Shown piece by piece: positions 19,790 through 59,545 of a stretch of DNA of 64,000 bases. The notes below the pieces were generated by a model that worked only from the letters and a program-made list of their open reading frames with translations, ran no database searches and was not told where the DNA came from. The stretch covers positions 186,001 through 250,000 of the forward strand of contig NZ_CP087724.1 of NCBI RefSeq assembly GCF_024972755.1, in the 5' to 3' direction. Both the position numbers and the translations under genes were made by a program. How positions within the stretch are numbered: the first letter of the stretch is position 1; each line of letters starts with the position of its first letter. This stretch comes from Halanaeroarchaeum sp. HSR-CO (GTDB lineage Archaea > Halobacteriota > Halobacteria > Halobacteriales > Halobacteriaceae).

Positions 19790-19862
19790 TGGGACCGCCC
19801 GGATTTGAACCGGGGTCACGAGCACCCAAAGCTCGAAGGATACCAAGCTACCCTACGGTCCC
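19790..19862 (-). tRNA. tRNA-Pro (anticodon TGG)
   Basis: A full cloverleaf folds on the minus strand: acceptor GGGACCG pairs with CGGTCCC, discriminator A, anticodon stem CGAGC/GCTCG around loop TTTGGGT with anticodon TGG, and T-loop GGTTCAAATCC. No intron and no encoded CCA. Small genes of a likely integrated element begin just downstream of its 3' end. Confidence 0.95.
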
Positions 19863-25920: not shown

Positions 25921-26003
25921 ACATCAAATTCAGACATATTGACAATAAGTTCCGCGGTTCGTCGGTTGGTCCGTGTGAATCGGGGGTGGGTTCGACCCCA
26001 CTG

Positions 26004-26255
26004 TTATCGTTCAGTGTCTTCGATAGGCCGATCGATGACCCAGTTCACGAGGCGCTTCCCGACAGTTACGGGGACGTCGCCTGGGGTCCACAGTAGCCGT
26101 TCGACGAGGACCAGTCCAACGGCGACGCTGATGCCGGTGAGGCCGAGGGCAGTTCGCCCGTCCAGTAGGAGTTGCAGGCCGTAGATCCCGATGGGCAGGG
26201 CGAAGACGAGGGTCGTGCCAAGCGTGATGAGGTCGACGATCCCCAACCGTTCCAT
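26004..26255 (-). CDS. small membrane protein, 83 aa
   Basis: Two hydrophobic helices: about residues 7-28 (VDLITLGTTLVFALPIGIYG) and 35-53 (ALGLTGISVAVGLVLVERLL), with a following PGDVPVTVGKRLVNWVIDRP amphipathic segment. This layout is found in short conserved haloarchaeal membrane proteins. No enzymatic motif. The ATG at 26255 is the only sensible start. It lies downstream, on the same strand, of tRNA-His and its duplicated 3' fragment. Confidence 0.75.
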   Translation of the reverse strand: MERLGIVDLITLGTTLVFALPIGIYGLQLLLDGRTALGLTGISVAVGLVLVERLLWTPGDVPVTVGKRLVNWVIDRPIEDTER

Positions 26256-26294
26256 GGTTCCTCCAGGTCGTCCGGTCGTCTATGTCTTTCCGTC

Positions 26295-26527
26295 GCGGGT
26301 GCGCAGGGTAGCGCACCCGCTCTCAGGAGTTGTTCGCAGTGAAGGTCCAGGTGCGAGAATTGAACCTCAGTCGGGCGTGCTCGCTTACTCCGCTCGCTGC
26401 GCCCGCCCTCCCTGATTCAATTCTCGCAGTCCCTTCTCTCCTCACGAGACGTCTCGCGGTCGCGCAGGTCAGCGCGACCGCTCCCCTGGGATGTTCGGAG
26501 AGAAGGTCCAGGTGCGAGAATTGAACC
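26295..26527. repeat. diverged tandem duplication of the tRNA-His 3' end and flanking hairpin
   Basis: Two units 161 bases apart: 26295-26366 and 26456-26527. Each has a perfect 10-bp hairpin with a 6-base loop (26295-26320 and 26456-26481), a less conserved stretch, and then 26 identical bases (26341-26366 and 26502-26527). The second identical run includes the real 3' end of tRNA-His. A 13-base inverted copy of the T-arm (26416-26428) pairs with 26352-26364. This could be an attachment-site scar or a replication-slippage product. Confidence 0.8.
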
Positions 26528-26579
26528 CGCGTCTCAGCCTCCACAAGGCTGAAGGATAGTCCACTACCCCAACCCGGAC
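26506..26579 (-). tRNA. tRNA-His (anticodon GTG)
   Basis: Minus strand. Acceptor GTCCGGG pairs with CCTGGAC, anticodon stem CAGCC/GGCTG surrounds TTGTGGA with anticodon GTG, and the T-arm is GCGGG-TTCAATT-CTCGC. The base after the acceptor (26505) reads C on the tRNA strand, the C73 typical of tRNA-His; the extra G at position -1 is not encoded (26580 reads T) and must be added later. No intron seen. Confidence 0.92.
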
Positions 26580-26701
26580 ACGCAATAGGGTCTACAGTCG
26601 CTCGAAGTAAAATACGTTACGACATCGGGGCTCTCCGAGTGCCACTCGCGCACTCCCCCTCGATACGCTTTTCCGCCCGAGACGGCTATCGCTCTCCACG
26701 C

Positions 26702-27154
26702 GTGGCCATCACCGACAAGATCTACGTCAAGAACCACCGGCAGTTGGCCTCCCAACTCGAGGTGTCCTTCCCCAAGAGCGCCTTCAACGGCGCCACTCTC
26801 GACATCCTCTTCCAAGGCGACCTCGAGAAACTCGACGAGGCGTCCCGCGAACGCGTCCTCGATTTCAACCAGGACTTCCTGGATTGCACCTGCGATTCGA
26901 ACCCCTACTGTGGGCACCCGGAGCGCAAGTTCATCGCCTATCTCCTCGACCTGCGCGCCCAGGGCCTCGATCCCGAGTCCATCGTGGACGTGATGTCAGA
27001 GGACTACATGCTGTACGCGTATCCGGGGGACCTCTACTCGTTCCTCGACGACGCGGTCCGCACGCTCGAGGCGGTCGAAGAACTGGCGGACGTCGAAGGA
27101 GAAGCCGGTGCCGCCAGACGGGCAGGGGAACGCAAACGGGAGTTGCTTCGCTGA
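26702..27154 (+). CDS. conserved protein with cysteine cluster (DUF5814-like)
   Basis: 150 aa from a GTG start at 26702 that opens the typical VAITDKIYVKNHRQLASQL. A CTCDSNPYCGHPERK cluster near residue 62 could bind metal, and MLYAYPGDLYSFLDDAVRTL follows. I recognise this as a DUF5814-like haloarchaeal protein; the same type of domain can be attached to helicases, but here it stands alone. Soluble and acidic. It converges on a ribbon-helix-helix gene with 1 base between stops. Confidence 0.75.
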   Translation: MAITDKIYVKNHRQLASQLEVSFPKSAFNGATLDILFQGDLEKLDEASRERVLDFNQDFLDCTCDSNPYCGHPERKFIAYLLDLRAQGLDPESIVDVMSEDYMLYAYPGDLYSFLDDAVRTLEAVEELADVEGEAGAARRAGERKRELLR

Positions 27155-59020: not shown

Positions 59021-59093
59021 GGGCCGGTGGGGTAGCTTGGTATCCTTCGGCCTTCGGGTGGCCGTAACCGCGATTCAAATTCGCGCCGGCCCA
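59021..59093 (+). tRNA. tRNA-Pro (anticodon CGG)
   Basis: Acceptor GGGCCGG pairs with CCGGCCC, discriminator A, anticodon stem CGGCC/GGCCG with loop TTCGGGT and anticodon CGG, and T-arm CGCGATTCAAATTCGCG. No intron, no CCA encoded. The integrated element begins directly after it, so its 3' end is the probable left attachment site. Confidence 0.96.
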
Positions 59094-59157
59094 CTACCTA
59101 TATACCCCTTTTCCAGCCTTCACTGACAGGTTTAGCGGGTTTTCGGGGGTGTCGTCA

Positions 59158-59328: not shown

Positions 59329-59410
59329 TGTATACAATCGGCCCACCCCTGTATACACCTATTCGCCGGGGCTACGAGGGCACTACCGCCAGAATATTCG
59401 GGTGTATACA
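59329..59410. promoter_or_regulatory. three TGTATACA palindromes near whole-turn spacing
   Basis: TGTATACA occurs at 59329-59336, 59350-59357 and 59403-59410. Spacings are 21 and 53 bases, close to 2 and 5 helical turns, so the sites would face the same side of the helix. The third is inside a longer palindrome GGGTGTATACACCC. Likely operator sites for a dimeric element regulator, or replication-origin iterons. They lie in an otherwise gene-poor 238-base gap (59308-59545). Confidence 0.65.
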
Positions 59411-59545
59411 CCCCTCCCCCTCCCCGGAACGCGAGACTCGCTCAAGCGCCCCCGGGGGCGTACATGGCCGCGCGGCATATTGCCGGCGAAGCCGGCAGCG
59501 GGCGGGTGCGCACACACGCGAGGCCGGCGGTCGGAGGTGGTCGGC

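Follow-up and report, generated by a model that had tools for sequence, protein, structure and literature searches.

The tRNA-His (GTG) gene of Halanaeroarchaeum sp. HSR-CO heads an array of structured repeats that lie downstream of it on the same strand (Table 1). The analysis covers a window of 64,000 nucleotides (contig NZ_CP087724.1, positions 186,001 to 250,000), and coordinates refer to this whole stretch unless another contig or genome is named. The opposite side of tRNA-His is occupied by a gene for a DUF5814 protein, identified with Pfam. Each tRNA that bears an array of this kind is followed by one or more units, which in this genome measure 94-274 nt and contain no gene.

Table 1. 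Features of the tRNA-His array and of a related insertion in another genome.
Feature	Position	Strand	Basis
tRNA-His (GTG), heads the array	26505-26578	-	ARAGORN; Rfam RF00005 at 26506-26578, 46 bits
3' tail of tRNA-His	26505-26527	-	
Complete 161-nt unit (trailer and H1, inverted tail, core, tail copy)	26344-26504	-	tail-copy scan; spacing 161
Hairpin H1, beginning in the last tRNA bases and including the trailer; contains a perfect 10-bp hairpin at 26456-26481	26432-26506	-	RNA fold
Inverted (reverse-complement) tail; exact 13-nt T-arm part at 26416-26428, acceptor part imperfect	26416-26442	-	
Core, type A; here TCAGGGAG ... CGACTGAGG	26367-26415	-	alignment; model R1 match 26356-26424, E 2.9e-5
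Hairpin H2 (inverted tail, core and tail copy)	26352-26428	-	RNA and DNA fold
tRNA-His tail copy, 23/23 identical (26/26 with the first trailer bases)	26344-26366	-	
Truncated second unit, represented by its trailer and hairpin; includes the perfect 10-bp hairpin at 26295-26320	26295-26343	-	
Insertion between tRNA-Arg(TCG) and its array	G006:C2, L481:12544-12620 and L482:2285-2447		

Segments 26293-26366 and 26454-26527, spaced by 161 nt, are 82% identical over 74 nt and share 26 identical bases (26341-26366 and 26502-26527). The spacing, the two perfect 10-bp hairpins, and the inverted 13-base copy between the repeats had been described in the original prediction, made from the letters of the DNA, and all three stand. 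Two other parts of that description require amendment. The unit was described as present twice; one full 161-nt unit exists, but the second is incomplete and retains the trailer hairpin alone. The outer copy was described as a tRNA fragment made of the T-arm and acceptor half; it is a fragment, but it comprises the T-loop, the 3' strands of the T-stem and acceptor stem, and the discriminator, rather than whole stems. Viewed on the tRNA strand, the inverted 13-base copy supplies the 5' arm of hairpin H2 and the outer tail copy its 3' arm, and the spacer from tRNA-His to the inverted copy is a second hairpin, H1. The predicted RNA fold of the H1 region (26431-26508) reaches -47.3 kcal/mol (z -5.1), and H2 reaches -42.8 kcal/mol as RNA (z -4.6) and -25.4 as DNA (z -5.0). 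Relative to shuffles, 300 nt of the array region fold with a z of -8.1.

The same arrangement is found at many other tRNA genes of this genome. Copies of a tRNA's own tail matching at least 17 of 23 positions occur within 650 nt downstream of 24 of the 43 tRNA genes and upstream of one; at 20 of 23 or better, they lie downstream of 19 and upstream of none. When foreign tRNA tails are tried in these downstream regions, matches of at least 20/23 arise in 14 of 1800 trials. Chance or shared T-arm sequence is ruled out as the source of the copies by upstream, swapped-tRNA, and reversed-pattern controls. A second array, with the same anatomy, a similar core, and arms that copy its own tail, follows an intron-bearing tRNA at C1:2688000-2688104 (the sequence reads Arg-TCT; the ARAGORN label is Glu). 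Own-tail copies are also present at 13 of 45 tRNAs of Halostella pelagica (upstream matches, 1) and 19 of 47 of Natronorubrum bangense (upstream matches, 3), and some of the upstream matches in these two genomes are full tRNA duplicates.

Some tRNAs of the studied genome are without arrays, as judged from tRNA-Pro(TGG) (window 19790-19862), which has no downstream tail copies and a best match of 12/23. The tRNA-Pro(CGG) gene (window 59021-59094), called by ARAGORN and absent from the Rfam matches at the gathering threshold, shows by eye no tail array behind it; palindromic TGTATACA motifs are located at about 59330-59420.

Units follow a fixed order on the tRNA strand: trailer hairpin, inverted own tail, conserved core, and direct tail copy. 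The borders of the direct copies were profiled in three genomes, from which 75 copies remained after removal of full tRNA copies; 64 were kept once those below 19/23 or with too little flank were dropped. Identity to the tRNA is 0.26 before the tail, 0.93 within it, 0.57 at +1 to +3, and 0.43 at +4 to +20. The tail interval was itself picked by similarity, and the low identity on either side was not part of that selection. Copies end sharply at the mature tRNA 3' end. Given these sharp borders, the copied part is the end of the tRNA, beginning at the final T-stem base and closing with the discriminator. Judged on the 12-nt acceptor part, 70 of the 75 copies have their own tRNA as the best or equal-best match.

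The arms of H2 change together from tRNA to tRNA: of its ten outer pairs, 9.06 are formed, and swapping the arms among loci lowers this to 6.66 (n=69). Within the inverted tail, the acceptor portion is weak, with a longest shared run of at least 5 in 21% of cases versus 7% in swapped controls. Cores of a few types lie between the arms. Type A keeps TCAGGGA...GACCG around highly divergent loops and a T-G (wobble) pair at its foot, type B keeps CGCAG...GA(C/A/T)CGTC, and type C keeps GAGGTTCTGCG. A given type recurs at different tRNAs and across genera; the type-A core of the window aligns with a module present at further tRNAs of the same genome. At the Leu-TAG, Met, and Val-CAC loci, units have a common H1 and inverted tail but differing cores. 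Because cores are common to different tRNAs and differ within loci, they behave like exchangeable modules. In two relatives (G003 and G009; L005 and L006), the second units at tRNA-His have the same core and a different H1, and H1 is thus exchangeable in the same way.

A covariance model built on 16 type-B hairpins from three genomes was used to map the distribution of these units. At E <=0.01 it finds 34 places in the genome of the window, some of the training-set hairpins included, and 33 of these lie within 1 kb downstream, on the same strand, of 20 tRNA genes; the single match remote from any tRNA is at C1:453049 (E 0.0055). In a sample of 80 genomes from across the phylum, the covariance model matches all 14 sampled members of the order and none of the 66 others. 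For each of the 30 matches fetched from other genomes, two Haloferax records among them, a tRNA lies upstream at less than 1 kb. The type-A core pattern gives 25 matches in 40 related genomes, and the reversed pattern gives none; 20 of the 25 follow a tRNA at a distance of 41-376 nt. Among the remaining pattern matches, L321 (1037 nt from a tRNA) looks like chance, as do L320 and L333, and L332 is a displaced array. The fifth (L334, G006:C4:207290-207317) is a perfect type-A core hairpin; the stretch fetched shows no tRNA, and this is possibly an off-tRNA copy of the hairpin.

The tRNA-His locus was also compared across haloarchaea. The sample comprised at least 119 named loci, all 119 of which entered the copy count and 80 of which entered the unit comparison; seven with less than 300 nt downstream were dropped. 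Among the 112 usable loci listed, a downstream copy of at least 18/22 is present in 52 and of at least 21/22 in 42, two or more copies occur in 13, and an upstream copy occurs in one. The arrays are not general among archaea: two genomes of the phylum from outside the haloarchaea, surveyed at their first 15 and 16 ARAGORN tRNAs (against 50 and 45 Rfam matches), gave 2 and 1 matches, which on inspection are neighboring full or degenerate tRNAs. In one genome outside the order (G043, L299), a degenerate tRNA-like copy (30.6 bits) with an exact tail at its end stands behind tRNA-Ala(CGC); this genome is non-haloarchaeal, and the anatomy is unlike that of haloarchaeal arrays.

This distribution changes how the tRNA-His repeat is to be read. 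The original prediction took it as a possible trace of integration, either a scar left after excision or a miniature element. The hint at a miniature element comes near to the present finding, but the scar of a single excised island is not supported, given the same arrangement at 24 of 43 tRNAs, with common cores and in many genera. An inserted element was to be sought at tRNA-His in relatives, where the tRNA-His/DUF5814 neighborhood proves, by eye, to be the same in several. A local scar or island at tRNA-His is ruled out by this constant neighborhood together with the genome-wide pattern. Recurrence of the duplication in many genera, named beforehand as the outcome that speaks against the reading, is what was found, and the local-scar interpretation falls. 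The initial observation was correct but far too local, because the arrays are genome-wide and extend across haloarchaea. Their recurrence in many genera raises the interest of the feature while it removes the local scar.

Mobile DNA of archaea and bacteria lands most often at the 3' ends of tRNA genes, and one relative shows such an element at an array. In genome G006, an insertion exactly between tRNA-Arg(TCG) and its hairpin array sets the two 9.7 kb apart. The far end of the insertion carries a diverged tail copy with a tyrosine recombinase gene beside it, which matches the phage integrase family PHROG 1 (E 2e-25) and, below the cut-off, a XerC model (E 2e-14), and has no Pfam match. It follows that integrases use the same tails, and that an integrated element can push an array away from its tRNA.

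Tail copies track the tRNA beside them. The tail of tRNA-His varies at three positions among haloarchaea, and when these are masked for the comparison, copies agree with their own tRNA at 177 of 189 positions; shuffles average 125.5 and reach at most 144 (63 copies at 50 of the 112 tRNA-His loci listed, species kinship not removed). In the genus represented by the window, two tail positions distinguish the two genomes, and each copy matches its own tRNA; H1 and the cores differ between these same genomes. Array content also turns over rapidly. Between two species of another genus, 42 orthologous tRNAs comprise 21 with no copies in either, six with equal numbers, and 15 with different numbers, and all 15 differences are of presence versus absence. 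In nine of these 15 pairs, the empty flank is most like what follows the last tail in the other species, among them tRNA-Asn (score 110 versus 14.5) and Ser-CGA (138 versus 30); in five it is closer to the unit start, and one is unclear. A whole unit plus tail is clearly present or absent at tRNA-Asn, Ser-CGA, Arg-TCT, Arg-GCG, and His. As the empty flank at several loci corresponds to the sequence beyond the last tail, whole units are there cleanly present or absent at the tRNA 3' end.

Such repeats could also have a neutral origin, by tandem duplication or slippage in GC-rich DNA or as the scar of one excised island. Short repeats do permit deletion. The clearest example of tandem unit amplification is the array at tRNA-Gly(TCC) (C1:1877974 onward, L048), a long run of near-identical 111-nt units; its first 650 nt contain four tail copies, and seven model matches, at 111-nt or similar steps, extend to about 830 nt. 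Unequal exchange therefore does act. Neutral duplication, slippage, or a single scar cannot, however, produce cores common to different tRNAs, copies bounded at the T-loop and discriminator, or the tracking of the own tRNA beyond the shuffle maximum. Slippage or a single scar as the whole story is refuted by the borders, the common cores, the order-wide occurrence, and the tRNA tracking, and the neutral account is very unlikely.

The arrays are best described as a haloarchaeal tail-hairpin class whose units are gained and lost by recombination at the tRNA tail, a reading that we hold at about even odds (probability near 0.5), with the recombination itself inferred. Each tail would serve as a recombination site. 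A unit, whether free or an array neighbor, would recombine with the tRNA through its tail, as integrative elements do, and units would thereby be gained, lost, and reshuffled while the tRNA is kept intact. Each exchange could give the tRNA the 3' end of the copy, such that untrue copies would be lost or overwritten. This filtering by tRNA function would keep the identity from T-loop to discriminator and let trailers drift. The hairpin, with its conserved internal mismatches, may be the recognition target of the recombination machinery, which perhaps derives from haloviruses or plasmids. The turnover data are compatible with both gain and loss by tail-tail deletion. Against this reading stand the five of 15 pairs whose empty flank is closer to the unit start, and the weak acceptor portion of the inverted tail. 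Pure recombination alone leaves the complementarity of the inverted arms and the conservation of core motifs unexplained, and an RNA function would explain both.

Such an RNA role is the main rival, possible though rather less than probable. Here, the array would be read through from the tRNA promoter, and the units would be structured RNAs with a tRNA-like 3' end, excised by tRNA-processing enzymes or acting in termination, by analogy with the rtT RNA from E. coli tyrT. This account fits the constant position of the arrays, always downstream and on the same strand, and copies that stop at the mature tRNA end. It also fits the strong folding of H2, its conserved internal motifs, and the wobble pair retained at the foot of type A. 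Nevertheless, the inverted tail would compete with folding of the tRNA, and in the loci scanned the units match no Rfam family. The arrays are also patchy, being found at 52 of the 112 tRNA-His loci listed and differing at 15 of 42 orthologous tRNAs within one genus. This patchiness weighs against an essential RNA role and is compatible with a non-essential one.

Arrays could instead grow by polarized insertion, as in CRISPR arrays or casposons, with an integrase adding modules at the tRNA 3' end, duplicating the 22-nt tail, and leaving the newest unit nearest the tRNA. Of the copies in an array, those nearest the tRNA resemble it more closely than the distal ones in 12 loci, less closely in one, and equally in three. 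The borders fit a fixed target duplication, and what empty sites at several loci lack is exactly a unit plus tail. Casposons in some archaea target tRNA 3' ends, according to the relevant part of PMC4046053. However, the same gradient could also come from homogenization by the tRNA, and the units already contain an inverted copy of the target. Moreover, the first unit is common to G003 and G009, which diverge in the H1 of the second unit instead of at the leader end. Polarized insertion is consequently judged improbable. A broader version, in which the hairpin modules would be gene-free mobile cassettes inserted by a haloarchaeal machinery at exact tRNA 3' ends, each insertion duplicating the 22-nt tail, is also unlikely, though somewhat less so. 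Under it, arrays would grow outwards from the tRNA, which would be both leader and template for the arms.

The arrays belong to a loosely known kind, tRNA-tail repeats, and are not RtT, interspersed repeats, or integrated islands. At the gathering threshold, Rfam matches in the window and eight array loci are to tRNA (RF00005) alone, with RtT (RF00391) not matched, which rules out a known RNA family at these loci; a search of window 26000-27000 at E up to 5 gave nothing relevant. The nearest known form, by analogy, is the repeat at E. coli tyrT, which has 178-bp tandem units containing 19 bp of the tRNA tail. RtT small RNAs are reported to be freed from tRNA operon transcripts, that of tyrT included (PMC4986893). 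Both systems have a tRNA gene followed by tandem units that contain the tRNA 3' end. In contrast to tyrT, the arrays described here are archaeal, occur at about half of all tRNAs, and have an inverted tail and conserved hairpin cores.

Haloarchaeal examples of integrated elements have partial tRNA copies of 22 and 43 bp as direct repeats (PMC3119063). As with tRNA-integrated elements that use tyrosine integrases, a direct repeat of the 3' part of the tRNA bounds the insert. The arrays differ in consisting of gene-free tandem units of ~90-270 nt, with an inverted tail and a conserved core, at about half of the tRNAs. They are no sporadic, lineage-specific event, being present at 24 of 43 tRNAs of this genome and in all 14 sampled genomes of the order. 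Haloquadratum PATEs, MITEs, and small mobile repeats are likewise gene-free, hairpin-forming, and repeated (PMC3119063), but the portion of that source cited here describes no tie of any of them to tRNAs, whereas the arrays adjoin tRNAs and their arms copy them. Nor are the units scattered independently of tRNAs, as 33 of 34 model matches in this genome, 30 of 30 elsewhere, and 20 of 25 core-pattern matches lie downstream of tRNAs. Two further likenesses are by analogy only: to integron attC sites in form, as a hairpin recombination site, and to CRISPR arrays and casposons in the leader-anchored duplication of repeats. No description of such arrays was found in the open-licence PMC literature, and older subscription papers may hold one; nothing comparable in extent, inverted arms, and conserved cores was found in open-licence PMC papers.

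The recurring arrays of haloarchaea thus look like an undescribed, fast-changing class of tRNA-linked repeat. They confound automatic calls of island borders and of 'partial tRNAs' in haloarchaea. Model matches beside tRNAs in Haloferax species make them directly testable. The class would represent either a mobile cassette of a new kind or a concealed layer of RNA linked to tRNA genes.
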